A model generated the notes under the pieces. That model had not been told where the DNA came from. It worked only from the letters and a program-made list of their open reading frames with translations, and made no database searches. This document shows, one piece after another, positions 33,044-38,158 of a stretch of DNA of 64,000 nucleotides. How positions within the stretch are numbered: the first letter of the stretch is position 1; each line of letters starts with the position of its first letter. A program made the translations under genes and the position numbers. The DNA is from Parabacteroides sp. ZJ-118 (lineage in GTDB: Bacteria; Bacteroidota; Bacteroidia; Bacteroidales; Tannerellaceae): contig NZ_JAAKDT010000011.1 of the NCBI RefSeq assembly GCF_011038785.1, positions 1-64,000 on the forward strand, written 5' to 3'.

Positions 33044-33065
33044 TATTTGATTAGTATATCATGGG

Positions 33066-33105
33066 AAGAGCGCCTTTCTCTAAAAGAAAGGCGCTCTTTT
33101 ATTTT
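33066..33105 (+). terminator. Intrinsic terminator of the fumarate reductase operon
   Basis: AAGAGCGCCTTTCT (33066-33079) and its perfect 14-base complement (33085-33098) with a 5-base loop are followed by TTATTTTTT. This is the strongest terminator in the window. Confidence 0.92.
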
Positions 33106-33118
33106 TTGTTATATATCG

Positions 33119-33174
33119 CAAAACATAATTTAGCATTACACCCTTTAACAAGAGTTGAGAACTTCGTACATTCG
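33119..33174 (+). promoter_or_regulatory. Promoter of element copy 1
   Basis: TTTA (33144-33147), 19 bases, TACATTCG (33167-33174). An upstream block CAAAACATAATTTAGCA (33119-33135) lies exactly 48 bases before the -7 box and is identical in sequence and spacing at copy 2, so it may be an activator site. Confidence 0.6.
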
Positions 33175-33175
33175 C

Positions 33176-33260
33176 ATTGTGATTTTTTCATAATAGTATT
33201 AGATTTAAGGTTAAAAAAATTGGGTTAGGGCTTGTCGGGAGACAAGCTTTAATTGTTTAT
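33176..33260 (+). ncRNA. Repeated transcribed element, copy 1 (candidate sRNA or leader)
   Basis: Immediately after the promoter comes a core shared with 36033 and 37996. It begins TTTTTTCATAATAGTATTAG, continues ATTTAAGGTTAA, and then GGGTTAGGGCTTGTC. The hairpin GCTTGTC (33230-33236), loop GGGA, GACAAGC (33241-33247) is perfectly paired here, whereas the other two copies have GACAGGC, which keeps pairing through a G-U. This copy precedes the radical SAM gene by about 200 bases and shows no obvious terminator of its own, so it may be a 5' leader. It may correspond to a known Bacteroidales RNA family. Confidence 0.6.
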
Positions 33261-33464
33261 GGGCCTACCTTTTAAATATGGATCACAAAATCCTGTAAAT
33301 AGAGATTGTTTAGCGTCATTTTATCATCGATCTTTGCCTTTAAAGATCATCGTATATGCTAATAAGTATTTTATTTGGCTTCTTATGTTATCTTCTCCGG
33401 GTGTTGATCAAACACAAGGGAAAAATCATGCGCCAGATAAGACAAATGATAAAACAAAAATAAA
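33261..33464. other. Region between RNA element copy 1 and the radical SAM gene
   Basis: No convincing gene is found. An open frame here (33253-33504) overlaps the radical SAM start and has no family features, so it is not called. A dyad GATCTTT/AAAGATC lies at 33329-33348 without a T-run. Confidence 0.5.
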
Positions 33465-34676
33465 ATGGACAAAAAACGAACCACCAGTTCTTTTAGGGCT
33501 ATGAGCACGGAAAGAAAACTCGAGTCGATCTTCCTTTTCGTAACAGGCCGATGCAATGCCAAATGTGCGATGTGCTTCTATGCCCAAGAAATGGATAAGA
33601 AGCAACCCGACCTCACGTTCGATGAAATCAAGAAGATATCAGAAACCGCCGGACAATTCAACCGATTATGGATATCCGGGGGAGAGCCTACCCTACGTGA
33701 GGATCTACCGGAAATATTGGAGTTGTTCTACAAAAACAACCATATTAAAGATGTAAACATCCCTACGAACGGCTTAAAACCAGACCGGATCGTGGAATGG
33801 ATAAAACGATTCCGCCAGAACTGTCCGGATTGCAATATTAACGTAAGCCTTTCCTTGGATGGCTTCGGCACGACCCATGATACACAGAGAGGCGTACCGG
33901 GAAACTTCTATAAGGCGCTAGAAGCCCTGCGTAAAATACAGGAGAATTTCGGAGACGATGGTAAAGTCTTAAAGAATATAGCAACCGTTATCACGAAATA
34001 CAACATAGACCAGATAGAGGACTTCATGGCTTGGGTATACGGGCGTTTCCATATCTCCACGCATACGATTGAGGCCGCCAGAGGCATGACTCGTGACGAT
34101 GGCGTGAAAATCCTAACCGAGTCAACGCTACGCAAAATACAAGACGACATATCCCCTATCTATTCAGCGTACGCAGAGCGGATGGTAGCGGATACCACTG
34201 GTTTAAGGAGACCGATCACACGCTTCTTCTATCTCGGTCTTATACGTACCTTGTATAATGTACGCGCCAGCAATATAGATCACCCGACCCCTTGGGGGAT
34301 GGATTGTACGGCCGGAGAGACTACCTTGGTAATCGACTACGACGGACGTTTTCGTGCCTGCGAATTACGGGAGCCGCTCGGGAATATAAAAGAGTATGGT
34401 TGCGATATAAGTAAAGTGATGAATGGCGAAGCGATGAAACAGGAAATAGCCGCTATCGGACATGGGTATAGAGCCAACTGTTGGTGTACGCACGGCTGCT
34501 GGATCACTTCATCCGTTATTTTCAATCCACGTAAGATGATTTGCTCCGTATATAAAGGATACCGGGAAACGAAGCGATTGAATCACCCCCTAGCCATCGA
34601 TGAGCAGAAATTACAAACAATAGAAGCCAAATATAATCTGGATATTGGACGTTTACATCAACTGAATATCCGGTGA
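33465..34676 (+). CDS. Radical SAM protein with C-terminal cysteine (SPASM-like) region
   Basis: The protein is 403 residues from MDKKRTTSS; a second Met at 33501 is also possible. The [4Fe-4S]-SAM motif CNAKCAMC lies near residues 30-37, followed by WISGGEPTLREDL. A C-terminal cysteine set (MDCTAGETTLVIDYDGRFRAC, split here, then CWCTHGCW and ICSVYKG) looks like a SPASM/twitch auxiliary cluster region. Such enzymes modify peptides or other small substrates by radical chemistry. The next gene, 33 bases on, is a GT1-type glycosyltransferase, so the pair may modify a common product. No precursor peptide is recognised nearby. Confidence 0.88.
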   Translation: MDKKRTTSSFRAMSTERKLESIFLFVTGRCNAKCAMCFYAQEMDKKQPDLTFDEIKKISETAGQFNRLWISGGEPTLREDLPEILELFYKNNHIKDVNIPTNGLKPDRIVEWIKRFRQNCPDCNINVSLSLDGFGTTHDTQRGVPGNFYKALEALRKIQENFGDDGKVLKNIATVITKYNIDQIEDFMAWVYGRFHISTHTIEAARGMTRDDGVKILTESTLRKIQDDISPIYSAYAERMVADTTGLRRPITRFFYLGLIRTLYNVRASNIDHPTPWGMDCTAGETTLVIDYDGRFRACELREPLGNIKEYGCDISKVMNGEAMKQEIAAIGHGYRANCWCTHGCWITSSVIFNPRKMICSVYKGYRETKRLNHPLAIDEQKLQTIEAKYNLDIGRLHQLNIR

Positions 34677-34709
34677 ACAAATCCCTCATAGCCCATAAAT
34701 AAACATCGC

Positions 34710-35942
34710 ATGAAAATACTATTAGTAACCAGAGGCTCACAAGGCGACGTCCTTCCTTATTTGGCCATAGCGGCCGAATTGGAAAGACGCGGCCATGAGG
34801 TGACCATCAATCTCCCTCAAATATTCGAGGATACCGTTAAACCCTACGGATTCAAATACGTATTACAGCAGTTTGACGATATCGGCGGCATGATCGATAG
34901 CGCAGCGCAAAACTCACATAAATTCCGGCCATTCCTTAAATGGATGCGGGATGTAATCGATAAACAATTTGATCAATTGATTCCCCTACTAAGAGAGCAT
35001 GATATCTTAGTGTCGACCAACTCGGAATTCGCGGTCGCAAGTATCGCCGAATATTGGAAGAAACCCTTGATACGTACCGCTTACGCCCCATTCTTGCCGG
35101 GTAAGAAGATTCCCCCCGCCGTATTGCCATTTCCCAAACCCAACCCGATCATCACTCCTGCGATCCTATGGAAGTTGATGAACCGGATGACTAATTTCAT
35201 GGTCAAAGACACGATCAACAAGAACCGGGCTAAATACGGACTCGCACCGATCCGAAATTTTGGTTACCATGCGGGAGAGCATTCATATAATTATTTGCTT
35301 TTCAGTCAGCACCTGGGGAACGTAGATCCAGATTGGACGTTCGAATGGGCGATCGGAGGTTATTGCTTCAATGATACTTTTCAATATGATGAGAAAGTTT
35401 ACGAGGAAATGATGTCATTCGTCAACAGCGCTCAAAGCCCTATTCTCTTTTTTACCCTCGGGAGTTGTAGTTCCAAGGATGGTAACCGTTTCAGTAAAGC
35501 CTTGGCCGATATTTGCAAAAAACATGACTATCGGCTCATCATCGGTTCCGGTTGGGCAAAGACAGGAATTACCTTACAAGCGGATAAACATTTATTCTTA
35601 ATGAAACAGCCCGTTCCTCATAATTTGATATTTCCACACTGCGACGGTGTTATCCATCATGGCGGTTGCGGTACGACTCATAGCGCAGGAAGGGCAGGAA
35701 AGCCCCAATTAATCACTCCGTTGATTATCGATCAGCCCTATTGGTCCTATCGAATCCAGCAATTGGGGTTAGGACCGGATGGGCTTAAGGTAGCGAAAGC
35801 AAGCGAGCAGGAGATCGAACGCAAGGTTTGCGACCTAGTCACCAATCCGCTTTATAAGAAAAATGCCGCTCATATCGGCAAGATGATCCAAAAAGAGGAG
35901 GGTATAAAGAATATATGCGACTCTATCGAAAGTTTTAAATGA
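34710..35942 (+). CDS. GT1/UGT-type glycosyltransferase (sterol/macrolide glucosyltransferase-like)
   Basis: The protein is 410 residues with the GT-B fold. The N-terminal acceptor domain opens with KILLVTRGSQGDVLPYLAIA and LERRGHEVTI. The C-terminal donor domain has LFFTLGSCSSKDGNRF, and the UDP-sugar signature HHGGCGTTHSAGRAGKPQLI (as HHGG...GKPQ) near residues 315-335. Relatives glycosylate lipids or small hydrophobic molecules. It is co-directional with, and close to, the radical SAM gene. The acceptor is unknown. Confidence 0.9.
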   Translation: MKILLVTRGSQGDVLPYLAIAAELERRGHEVTINLPQIFEDTVKPYGFKYVLQQFDDIGGMIDSAAQNSHKFRPFLKWMRDVIDKQFDQLIPLLREHDILVSTNSEFAVASIAEYWKKPLIRTAYAPFLPGKKIPPAVLPFPKPNPIITPAILWKLMNRMTNFMVKDTINKNRAKYGLAPIRNFGYHAGEHSYNYLLFSQHLGNVDPDWTFEWAIGGYCFNDTFQYDEKVYEEMMSFVNSAQSPILFFTLGSCSSKDGNRFSKALADICKKHDYRLIIGSGWAKTGITLQADKHLFLMKQPVPHNLIFPHCDGVIHHGGCGTTHSAGRAGKPQLITPLIIDQPYWSYRIQQLGLGPDGLKVAKASEQEIERKVCDLVTNPLYKKNAAHIGKMIQKEEGIKNICDSIESFK

Positions 35943-36024
35943 ATCCAAAATTCCTATTAGACTTTATTACATGTTACAAAACATAATTTAGCACTTATAC
36001 TATTGCAAAATAACGGTAACTCCG
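35943..36024 (+). promoter_or_regulatory. Upstream block and promoter of element copy 2
   Basis: CAAAACATAATTTAGCA (35977-35993) is repeated from copy 1 at the same distance (48 bases) from the -7 box, which is TACATTTG at 36025-36032. TTG at 36003-36005, 19 bases upstream of the -7 box, fits a -33 element. Confidence 0.6.
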
Positions 36025-36032
36025 TACATTTG

Positions 36033-36157
36033 CACCGTGGTTTTTTCATAATAGTATTAGATTTAAGGTTAACAAAGTTGGGTTAGGGCTTGTCGGGAGA
36101 CAGGCTTTAATTGTTTTATAAGGTCTGCTTCCCATAAGGCCTTGATTATTTAATCGG
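36033..36157 (+). ncRNA. Repeated transcribed element, copy 2 (candidate sRNA)
   Basis: The core (36033-36117) matches copies 1 and 3, with hairpin GCTTGTC (36088-36094), GGGA, GACAGGC (36099-36105). After it a weaker hairpin AAGGTC/GGCCTT near 36120-36144 precedes GATTATTT and could end the transcript. The LiaF-like gene has its own promoter downstream at 36206, so this RNA need not be its leader. Confidence 0.6.
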
Positions 36158-36205
36158 GATTATTCGGTTATTTACCGATAGCGGTATGGAAATCAGCGGT
36201 ATTTA

Positions 36206-36237
36206 TTTGTGTATAGAATAACAAACCTGTACATTTG
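36206..36237 (+). promoter_or_regulatory. Promoter of the LiaF-like/LytTR operon
   Basis: TTTG (36206-36209), exactly 20 bases, TACATTTG (36230-36237) is a perfect -33/-7 pair only 15 bases before the first ATG, leaving a leader of less than 10-25 bases depending on which ATG is used. The mRNA would be nearly leaderless. Confidence 0.75.
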
Positions 36238-36251
36238 GTGAAAATAAAAAA

Positions 36252-37028
36252 ATGAGACTTATGGATATGAAAGATTATGACAACGATTTTAAAAAGAAGA
36301 AGACAAACGGGTATCTGATCGCTACGTTATTTATCATCGTCGGTATATTATTTTTACTGCGGAATCTAGGAATGATAGATCCATCCTTATTTGACTTGCT
36401 TGTATCTTGGCCGATGCTGCTTGTCGTGTTGGGCATCTTTACGATTTTCCACCGTAATCCGGTAGGGGGCATGCTCCTTGTGGGCGTGGGAGTCTATTTT
36501 CTTTTCCCGCAGTTAAATTGGATCACGAACGATTTCTTACGTATATATTGGCCATTAGGATTAATCCTGTTAGGATTGGTCATCATACTGAAGCGCAAAG
36601 ATTCTATCCGTTCGAAAAAGCATAAACGTCCTTTTAACCATCCCCCTTTCGGGAACGGAAAGCCTAACGATGAGATCAACAATGAGACTGATAACGGTTT
36701 CGTATCGGTTAACGCCACATTCAACTCGGTAAGACACATCGTGCTGGATCCCGTATTCAAGGGGGCGGACATAGACGTATCTTTCGGCAACGTGATTCTT
36801 GATCTTAAAAAAACAACATTAGAGGCCGATGAAACCATCATAAACATAGATAGTTCCTTCAGCGGCGTAGTAATATACGTCCCTAAAGGATGGTTGGTTC
36901 GTCTGAAGGTTGGTTCTTTCTTGGCTGGATGCCAAGATATGAGGGAACTGACAGAAGCAACTGATATGACGCATACACTATGCGTATGTGGAGACCTGTC
37001 ATTCAGCGGCCTTGAACTAAGGGACTAA
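36252..37028 (+). CDS. LiaF-like / DUF5668 membrane protein
   Basis: The protein is 258 residues (250-255 if one of the internal ATGs at 36261 or 36267 is used, which the promoter position makes plausible). Four membrane segments (about 19-37, 42-60, 65-82, 93-112) carry the DUF5668/LiaF_TM pattern. Residues about 150-258 form a beta-rich cytoplasmic domain (VSVNATFNSVRHIVLDPVF, DVSFGNVILDL) like the LiaF/VraT C-terminal domain. LiaF proteins restrain cell-envelope stress responses in Firmicutes. It ends 7 bases before a LytTR regulator, so the pair may be a regulator with its membrane modulator. Confidence 0.85.
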   Translation: MRLMDMKDYDNDFKKKKTNGYLIATLFIIVGILFLLRNLGMIDPSLFDLLVSWPMLLVVLGIFTIFHRNPVGGMLLVGVGVYFLFPQLNWITNDFLRIYWPLGLILLGLVIILKRKDSIRSKKHKRPFNHPPFGNGKPNDEINNETDNGFVSVNATFNSVRHIVLDPVFKGADIDVSFGNVILDLKKTTLEADETIINIDSSFSGVVIYVPKGWLVRLKVGSFLAGCQDMRELTEATDMTHTLCVCGDLSFSGLELRD

Positions 37029-37035
37029 ACTCATC

Positions 37036-37833
37036 ATGCAAGAACATCCTATTACAACATCCATATTACATAAAGGACTAGGAAGCCTATTACTACTTTT
37101 AGCCATAGTGATCCAATGCGCGTTATTAACTCTTTACGGCGATCTTCCGTTGAGCATCACGTTGGTCGACAGCCTGCTTTCCATCGCATTGTTCGCCGTA
37201 GCGGGATATTACCTTTGGTATGTACAATGTACGTTGCATATCATGCAAGCACGAGTGGCTTTCGCCGTACTCGTACAAATCGCCTGCATAGCCGGATGCT
37301 CGGTCTTGCTACAAATATTCGAATGGGAAGATTGGGAGGAATTCTCGATCACGATTCCTTTCCGGTTCCTGTTCGGCCTAATGGCATGGACCATTCTATC
37401 CCAATGGTATGCCAGCCGGGAAAGAAAGAGCGAGGCGGAGTCTATCGTGAGACAAATGGAAGAAGATACGGCATCTCCTCCGCCGGCTACCATTCCGGAG
37501 GAGATGCTGGACCGTATATCCGTAAAAGACGGGACACGTATTCACATCATCCCGATAAAGGAGATATTCTATTTACAAGCATGTGGCGACTATGTGACCT
37601 TATTCACCACCTCCGGTCAGCACGTGAAGGAACAAACCATGAAGTATTTCGAACGAAGCCTACCTTCTCCGGAGTTCGTACGTATCCATCGCTCCTATAT
37701 TGTAAATACAGAACAGATATTGCGAGTGGAATTATTCGGAAAAGAAACCTATCAAGTACGGTTAAAAGATGGAACCTATCTTCGCGCCAGTAGCGCAGGA
37801 TATAAGCTGCTCAAAGAGCGTCTTTCCCTTTAG
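37036..37833 (+). CDS. Membrane-anchored LytTR transcriptional regulator
   Basis: The protein is 265 residues. The first 120 residues hold four membrane segments (about 12-31, 38-56, 70-88, 105-122). After a charged linker, residues about 163-262 form a LytTR DNA-binding domain: VKDGTRIHIIPIKEIFYLQACGDY (given in part), the ERSLPSPEFVRIHRSYIVN core, and VRLKDGTYLRASSAG. There is no receiver domain, so signalling must come through the membrane part or the LiaF-like partner. A DNA-binding domain tethered to the membrane implies direct control of promoters from the envelope. Confidence 0.88.
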   Translation: MQEHPITTSILHKGLGSLLLLLAIVIQCALLTLYGDLPLSITLVDSLLSIALFAVAGYYLWYVQCTLHIMQARVAFAVLVQIACIAGCSVLLQIFEWEDWEEFSITIPFRFLFGLMAWTILSQWYASRERKSEAESIVRQMEEDTASPPPATIPEEMLDRISVKDGTRIHIIPIKEIFYLQACGDYVTLFTTSGQHVKEQTMKYFERSLPSPEFVRIHRSYIVNTEQILRVELFGKETYQVRLKDGTYLRASSAGYKLLKERLSL

Positions 37834-37987
37834 CACTCCTATAAAAGGGATCTAATCATCATTAAAATTAGAAGATTTTGATCATAATATATAGAGTTTT
37901 GTATTACGTAACACTTTTTGGCAAGCATCAATATGTTACTTAACATATATTAGCCGCAAAAGACTTGACAAAAGGTCTTGACGAGCG
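37834..37987. other. Intergenic region before RNA element copy 3
   Basis: There is no gene here. The end holds CTTG (37964-37967), 20 bases, TACCTTTG (37988-37995), the promoter of copy 3. The CAAAACATAATTTAGCA block of copies 1 and 2 is absent and is replaced by a partly similar CATATATTAGCCGCAAA. Confidence 0.5.
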
Positions 37988-37995
37988 TACCTTTG

Positions 37996-38158
37996 CATTG
38001 TGGTTTTTTCATAATAGTATTAGATTTAAGGTTAACAAAGTTTGGTTAGGGCTTGTCGGGAGACAGGCTTTAATTGTTTATATAGGATGCTCTTATTTCC
38101 ATCCGCAAGAGTCCAGAAGCGGCCACCTCTTGAACCAAGAGGCAGCCGCTTTTTATTA
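37996..38158 (+). ncRNA. Repeated transcribed element, copy 3 with its own terminator (candidate sRNA)
   Basis: The core 37996-38081 matches copies 1 and 2, with hairpin GCTTGTC (38051-38057), GGGA, GACAGGC (38062-38068). About 50 bases later a strong intrinsic terminator follows: AGCGGC (38118-38123)/GCCGCT (38145-38150) outside CCTCTT (38126-38131)/AAGAGG (38137-38142), then TTTTTATT. The next gene is on the other strand, so the transcript of about 150 bases is freestanding. An open frame crossing it (37965-38159) is not credible. Confidence 0.72.
38118..38158 (+). terminator. Intrinsic terminator of element copy 3
   Basis: The two-part GC-rich stem AGCGGC/GCCGCT plus CCTCTT/AAGAGG has a GAACC loop and is followed directly by TTTTTATT. 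Confidence 0.85.

Follow-up and report, generated by a model that had tools for sequence, protein, structure and literature searches.

Three copies of a promoter-plus-RNA element in the genome of Parabacteroides sp. ZJ-118 are best read, with a probability of roughly 80%, as three independent small RNA (sRNA) genes of the FopS family. They belong to a sub-type, termed type B here, that has its own promoter design, a predicted start at GTG, a hairpin end, a putative role in SusC repression and a tendency of the repeats to recombine. The copies lie in the first 64,000 nucleotides (nt) of contig NZ_JAAKDT010000011.1 (assembly GCF_011038785.1), a stretch referred to as the window. In Bacteroides thetaiotaomicron, FopS is described as pairing with SusC start regions and repressing translation, with the RRM-1 protein RbpB opposing it (PMC11697453). 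The same source gives 14 FopS RNAs for that species and 12-15 per genome in the Bacteroides species compared, and describes the family as conserved in Bacteroidaceae and, a few seed changes in four members apart, as not strongly sub-diversified. The name Parabacteroides is absent from the main text of that paper, its supplementary figures being outside the scope of this statement, and no report of FopS in Parabacteroides was found in the literature searched, which did not cover supplementary material and so is not proof. The family, the core seed and the type of -7 promoter were known before; as far as has been seen, the novelty lies in type B itself, in the class of its promoter and in its role as a recombination seam.

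Family identity of the window copies

The copies, of about 84 nt each, start at 33179, 36037 and 38000, and share the 20-mer TTTTTTCATAATAGTATTAG (at 33183, 36041 and 38004), which is followed in all three by ATTTAAGGTTAA. A fourth exact TTTTTTCATAATAGTATTAG is present on another contig of the same genome (C36:22331), and a reversed control pattern gave no match in the genome. The initial annotation of this DNA had proposed three copies of a promoter-plus-RNA element, each behind its own TAnnTTTG-like box, and the shared 20-mer and the individual -7 boxes (TACATTCG, TACATTTG and TACCTTTG, at 33167, 36025 and 37988) bear this out. Its further suggestion of a multi-copy non-coding RNA family, possibly one already known from Bacteroidales, was supported by a covariance-model search of Rfam, which identified RF04319 (BTncRNA_FopS). 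All three copies match this model over its full length (1-71), the seed part included, with scores of 54.9, 57.2 and 53.9 bits (E 3e-6 for copy 1 and 5e-6 for copy 3). The gathering cut-off is 56 bits and a default search returns copy 2 alone, leaving copies 1 and 3 undetected at the Rfam cut-off. In folding predictions for the three core sequences, nt 1-40 have an unpaired probability of 0.59-0.74.

The whole-genome search that the initial annotation had called for yielded eight RF04319 matches at E <= 0.01. At E <= 10 there are 15 places in this genome, four of them over the cut-off. Since eight of 14 control genomes also match at that level (one over the cut-off), only the eight matches at E <= 0.01 are worth counting; at this stricter level Bacteroides ihuae is the sole matching control. 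Within the genus, matches at E <= 0.01 were found in 38/38 genomes, with 3 to 14 copies each, and within the order in 108 of 393 genomes, 76 over the cut-off, under stricter filters. The features of the locus are as follows, in order along the window.

33122..33132, + strand: copy 1, upstream box AACATAATTTA, candidate activator site (box search allowing two mismatches)
33145..33174, + strand: copy 1, promoter with -33 box TTAACA (33145), -7 box TACATTCG (33167) and N19 spacer
33179..33262, + strand: copy 1, FopS type B sRNA, predicted 5' end at GTG, putative 3' end; RF04319 54.9 bits
33223..33254, + strand: copy 1, 14-base-pair (bp) GNRA hairpin with GGGA loop
33465..35942, + strand: cassette between copies 1 and 2, radical SAM protein and glycosyltransferase
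35980..35990, + strand: copy 2, upstream box AACATAATTTA
36003..36032, + strand: copy 2, promoter with -33 box TTGCAA (36003), -7 box TACATTTG (36025) and N19 spacer
36037..36120, + strand: copy 2, FopS type B sRNA; RF04319 57.2 bits, exceeding the cut-off of 56
36081..36112, + strand: copy 2, 14-bp GNRA hairpin with GGGA loop, terminator-like
36252..37833, + strand: cassette between copies 2 and 3, LiaF-like membrane protein and LytTR regulator
37942..37952, + strand: copy 3, upstream box AACATATATTA
37965..37995, + strand: copy 3, promoter with -33 box TTGACA (37965), -7 box TACCTTTG (37988) and N20 spacer
38000..38082, + strand: copy 3, FopS type B sRNA (core); RF04319 53.9 bits
38044..38075, + strand: copy 3, 14-bp GNRA hairpin with GGGA loop, terminator-like
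38115..38154, + strand: second strong hairpin 3' of copy 3, ending in a T-run (38150-38154, partly within the stem), from folding and sequence

Two sub-types of FopS

Side-by-side comparison of the copies discloses two forms of FopS in Parabacteroides. The classic form, type A, starts with GTGTTTTTCATGGTATTAG and has a T-run behind its terminal hairpin. The window copies are of type B, which starts with GTGGTTTTTTCATAATAGTATTAG and carries a 14-bp GNRA hairpin followed by TTTAATTGTTTATA or a near variant; its extra letters appear as insertions in the Rfam alignment. The type B set was defined by the exact letters TTTTTTCATAAT, with up to five substitutions tolerated elsewhere, and comprises 54 copies, 45 of them distinct in the alignment; the exact-letter rule leaves out the plainly related locus L084, which has small changes. 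Columns 5-36 are invariant in the 45 distinct copies, columns 5-16 by construction and columns 17-36 although up to five substitutions were permitted. The 5' part, and not the hairpin, is the most conserved portion of type B, partly by choice of the set.

Of 630 stem cells (14 pairs in 45 distinct relatives), 99.7% hold a standard pair, with two-sided changes at 2/14 pairs and 22 cells that differ on both sides from the commonest pair. The observed pairing, number of two-sided cells and covariation score were each reached in none of 500 shuffles, and none of six slid versions of the stem contained a two-sided change. The hairpin of the initial annotation is indeed present in all three window copies, but was reported too short; the A-U pair said to become G-U corresponds to U-A in copy 1 and to U-G in the other two, a real change, but as a single wobble weak evidence alone.

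A DNA query with copy 2 returned E <= 5.4e-20 in 37/38 genomes of the genus, the exception being G418 (best E 9.4e-6). With a covariance model built from type B, copy 1 scores 103 bits and copy 3 scores 113 bits, both copies being part of the model's training set. When 393 genomes were searched, 21 gave matches at E <= 1e-6: all five sampled genomes of the family and G011, a 61% complete genome of another family, reached at least 94 bits, and the other 15 reached 84.4 bits at most. Among the non-family loci that were compared, L147-L150, together with L153 (which has a degenerate core), have the long seed on different stems, and L151, L152 and L154-L156 have a short seed. Because loci outside the family hold the long seed on other stems, this seed is probably older than the family Tannerellaceae, complete type B being mainly a family feature. 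In three genomes of other families (G280, G230 and G193; L148-L150) the GUGA tetraloop is kept along with the long seed, on stems unlike those of the window, and L148 and L150 have one stem in common. The stem sequence thus seems free, and the loop and seed constrained.

Promoters of the two sub-types

Promoter elements were counted only in copies within two substitutions of each 36- or 31-letter start, the degenerate loci L007 and L011-L013 being excluded. The type B set comprises 63 distinct upstream contexts, a few of them from outside the genus. One mismatch was allowed in the -33 box and two each in the upstream box and the dyad, expected counts were obtained from shuffles, and the copies are related by descent and are not independent events. 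In type B, the -7 box begins at -12 in 63/63 copies. A TTGACA-like -33 box is found in 53/63 (6.5 expected), with a gap of N19 or N20 in 51 of the 53, and the upstream box AACATAWWTTA in 58/63 (6.2 expected). Where both could be placed, the distance from the upstream box to the -33 box is exactly 23 bp in 48 of 50 copies. Window copies 1 and 2 have TTAACA and TTGCAA instead of TTGACA, the latter, as read from the sequence, differing by more than one mismatch, and the -7 box of copy 1 (TACATTCG) is one mismatch from TAnnTTTG.

Type A is mostly preceded by an ATGTT-N3-5-AACAT dyad, which occurs in only 1/63 type B copies. Within the genus (n=31) the dyad was found in 25/31 type A copies (4.3 expected), TTGACA in one and the upstream box in none. 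Elsewhere in the order (n=35) the dyad was found in 24 copies (5.0 expected), TTGACA in 10 (3.8 expected) and the upstream box in five (4.4 expected); the promoter contrast between the types is sharper within the genus than outside. The centre of the dyad lies from -31 to -26 in 48/49 dyad copies, most commonly at -27.

Canonical sigma-ABfr promoters have been described for FopS, with an unknown regulator suspected (PMC11697453). The upstream box and the dyad would bind two different regulators, and type B probably responds to a signal other than that of classic FopS. A wider proposal, to which slightly less than even odds are given, is that there is a second FopS regulon in Tannerellaceae: long-seed type B would be driven by TTGACA and an upstream activator box and type A through the dyad near -27, so that two signals meet at SusC translation through one seed family, with tandem type B copies acting as seams that swap cassettes. 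Should a second Parabacteroides sub-type with a separate promoter exist, one SusC-silencing seed would be connected to at least two signals. For a regulator hunt there are two concrete DNA sites, the dyad near -27 and the box near -57, and one of the regulators sought may be the one suspected behind bile-salt induction.

Predicted pairing with SusC start regions

Thirteen SusC genes in this genome exceed the TIGR04056 cut-off (27 matches in total). Duplex energies were calculated for target regions from -60 to +40 around the first ATG and compared with those of 392 other genes, taken from the window and about 15% of the genome, 207 of which are AT-matched. With the type B seed the mean for SusC is -17.4 kcal/mol vs -13.3 for the 207 AT-matched controls (p = 1.6e-5), and 6/13 SusC regions lie past the 5% point of the controls. 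None of 200 dinucleotide-shuffled seeds attained the difference between SusC and controls (80 of the 207 being used here), and dinucleotide-shuffled SusC regions gave -13.6 with the type B seed. The type A seed gave -16.4 vs -13.5 (p = 0.0013). A long pairing run 5' of the start is seen in L158, L159 and L162, which lie on contigs C11, C63 and C52. By analogy with B. thetaiotaomicron (PMC11697453), pairing of the sRNA at SusC start regions would block ribosome loading and lower glycan uptake. The genome encodes one RRM-1 protein (C43, 74.6 bits), and control of the sRNA is presumably RbpB-like, as the mechanism described in that species (PMC11697453) suggests.

FopS copies as possible recombination seams

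The order succinate dehydrogenase, copy 1, radical SAM protein and glycosyltransferase, copy 2, LiaF and LytTR, copy 3, FKBP is found in the window, in genome G394 and in Parabacteroides distasonis, with an additional convergent gene between copy 2 and LiaF in the latter two. Cluster regions were compared in 12 further genomes, G394 included, picked for holding several copies. A type B copy lies behind the succinate dehydrogenase iron-sulfur gene in 8/12 and behind the LiaF-LytTR pair in 10/12, nine of these ten pairs showing 36-53% protein identity.

The locus in G413 and G395 lacks the radical SAM and glycosyltransferase genes, and one hybrid FopS copy is left. In G413 the upstream flank of the hybrid agrees with copy 1 of G394 at 80/90 informative sites and the downstream flank with copy 2 at 112/118. 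In G395 the upstream flank agrees with copy 1 at 99/101 sites, and the sequence within and just past the RNA with copy 2; the whole downstream flank is blurred by further difference (34 to 36). Judged by these sites, the hybrid copy is the footprint of recombination between two FopS repeats, and because it marks the joint where the cassette is missing, the FopS repeats may be regarded as recombination seams. The two joints may stem from one common event. A radical SAM gene (76% identical) lies between two copies in G399, G403 and G427, and there is none in G289 and G393; the cassette may have been lost or gained. Tandem duplication of FopS would give dosage, and recombination of the repeats would then lead to loss or gain of cassettes. 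A hybrid copy at such a joint shows that multicopy sRNA genes can, as repeats, shape gene content.

Beside FopS in G394, G413 and P. distasonis there is an opposite-strand gene of about 1045 amino acids (L123/L134/L213; an ATP-binding protein in P. distasonis) that is absent from the window and is another variable cassette. The record NZ_OY725749.1, entered in PLSDB as a P. distasonis plasmid, contains succinate dehydrogenase and glycine-tRNA ligase genes and looks like a piece of chromosome labelled as a plasmid.

Transcript ends and alternative explanations

Transcription would start at the GTG about 12 nt past the start of the TAnnTTTG box, and the RNA would end at or just past the 14-bp hairpin, some copies having another hairpin farther downstream. 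A terminator scan flags the hairpins of copies 2 and 3, and not that of copy 1 (eight sites in the region vs 4.4 in shuffles). A second terminator-like hairpin within 60 nt is found in 17/54 type B copies, 1/31 type A copies and 4.9% of shuffles. The hairpin at 38115-38154, unflagged by the terminator scan and outside the 60-nt reach of the second-hairpin scan, is a possible read-through terminator, perhaps common to the convergent FKBP gene. The succinate dehydrogenase operon upstream of copy 1 ends in a hairpin of terminator type with a T-run (33064-33100), which separates it from the copy. A small protein encoded by the TTG-started frame of 83 amino acids (33253-33504), running from copy 1 to the radical SAM gene, was considered and rejected on account of a stop in the G394 counterpart (L123, by eye).

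Type B resembles FopS of B. thetaiotaomicron (RF04319; PMC11697453) in the seed GUAUUAGAUUUAAGGUUAA, in an unpaired 5' part followed by one hairpin, in the TAnnTTTG promoter, in its many paralogues and in predicted pairing with SusC starts. It differs in a 5' part with insertions at two places relative to the Rfam consensus (GUGguUUUUUCAuaaUAG), in a 14-bp stem in which the U-rich 3' arm is paired, in usually having a TTGACA-like -33 box and an AACATAWWTTA box instead of the ATGTT-N-AACAT dyad, and in often being clustered. An alternative identity, that the copies are orthologues of the longer sRNAs GibS or BTnc231, which have the seed in common, is unlikely. GibS (RF04182), described together with the name BTnc231 in PMC7366714, has the R1 seed in common with type B and likewise targets start-codon regions, but its model is of 142 nt, with a second seed, middle hairpins and a promoter of type PM2 (PMC7366714). 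The BTnc231 model (RF04180) likewise starts UUUUUUUCAUAG...UUUAGAUUUAAGGUUAG and has a GUCGUGAGAC hairpin and, further on, a terminator, but spans 154 nt. Copy 3 does align with both models from end to end, with its second hairpin at the matching place, and the 17 type B copies with a second hairpin would fit a longer RNA; moreover, below the cut-offs, GibS matches at E <= 1e-4 occur in 30/37 genomes of the genus (best 58.1 bits) and BTnc231 matches in 7/37 (best 35.6), this genome not among them. Nevertheless, copy 3 reaches only 31.4 bits vs the GibS cut-off of 115 and 25.2 vs the BTnc231 cut-off of 80.4, neither cut-off is reached in any of the 37 genomes, and many of the listed GibS matches begin or end at FopS places, which suggests that FopS is being seen via a related model. 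Membership of either family was rejected on these scores, and a GibS-like or BTnc231-like 3' extension for all of type B was rejected on the second-hairpin count.

Slightly less likely still is a role of the copies as 5' leaders or attenuators of the radical SAM and LiaF genes, with the hairpin as a conditional terminator. Copies 1 and 2 do lie about 200 and 130 nt 5' of a same-strand gene, and the T-run behind the hairpin is weak. Gene orientation decides against this: among the 58 type B copies whose flank is long enough, a downstream open reading frame was called for 57 (at least 100 amino acids, simple script; one copy overlaps a frame of more than 150 amino acids), on the same strand in 21 and on the opposite strand in 36, the latter including copy 3, which is convergent with the FKBP gene. 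Counterparts of copy 2 in G394 and P. distasonis also precede a convergent gene, and conservation peaks in the 5' part and not in the hairpin, with the caveat on set choice given above. The initial annotation had offered "non-coding RNA or leader"; the RNA family holds, as RF04319, but the leader was rejected on these 36/57 opposite-strand frames. Least probable, to the point of being very doubtful, are repeats that have no function as RNA, for instance a miniature mobile element or a recombination seam that happens to bear a promoter. The cassette differences, the joints inside copies, and the related sequences in viral contigs with a partial phage match would suit such repeats; the kept hairpin pairing, fixed promoter spacing and pairing of the seed with SusC would be unexpected, and the downstream flanks of the three window copies are only 30-59% identical to one another.

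Several points weigh against the reading of the copies as independent type B FopS genes that repress SusC. Copies 1 and 3 score 1-2 bits under the Rfam cut-off. In the stem, 21 of the 22 two-sided cells fall at one pair (C-G vs G-C or G-U), and because they share one position they may reflect few events; moreover, 8/500 shuffles reach the number of two-sided pairs and 460/500 the number of pair types, which leaves two weak measures of covariation out of five. Behind the hairpin, the tail TTTAATTGTTT forms a poor, interrupted U-tract, and this, with copy 1 unflagged by the terminator scan, makes the 3' end uncertain. As to the targets, 14 other TonB receptors average -14.6 kcal/mol with no clear excess (p = 0.14 for type B and 0.41 for type A), the core motif TTAAYCTTAAA (up to two mismatches) occurs in 5/13 SusC starts vs 21/207 AT-matched controls, and L164 is about average and L168 below average in seed pairing. 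The SusC starts were taken as the first ATG, which is probably wrong for at least one gene (L157), and the duplex energies leave target accessibility out of account.

Related sequences elsewhere

Three weak FopS-like places in this genome (C51:40554, C114:11688 and C36:210624; L011-L013) score from 29.6 to 37.6 bits and have altered seeds; they are possibly decaying or diverging paralogues, or partly due to chance. Eight stretches of IMG/VR viral contigs (L205-L212) contain an exact type A FopS core, and the type B core was found in none of the viral contigs. Bacteroides phage BX-TP2 (PQ571285.1) gave a partial match covering 40% of the query, and a phage copy of FopS is mentioned in PMC11697453. 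The exact hairpin GGCTTGTCGGGAGACARGC occurs in 13 stretches of named genomes. Among the Bacteroidota stretches, those in contigs of Muribaculaceae, Prevotella and Porphyromonadaceae were set aside as chance, the FopS core having no match with up to three mismatches among the matches listed. In P. faecis, P. chinchillae and one uncultured Parabacteroides contig, the GGCTTGTCGGGAGACARGC hairpin is accompanied by the FopS core.

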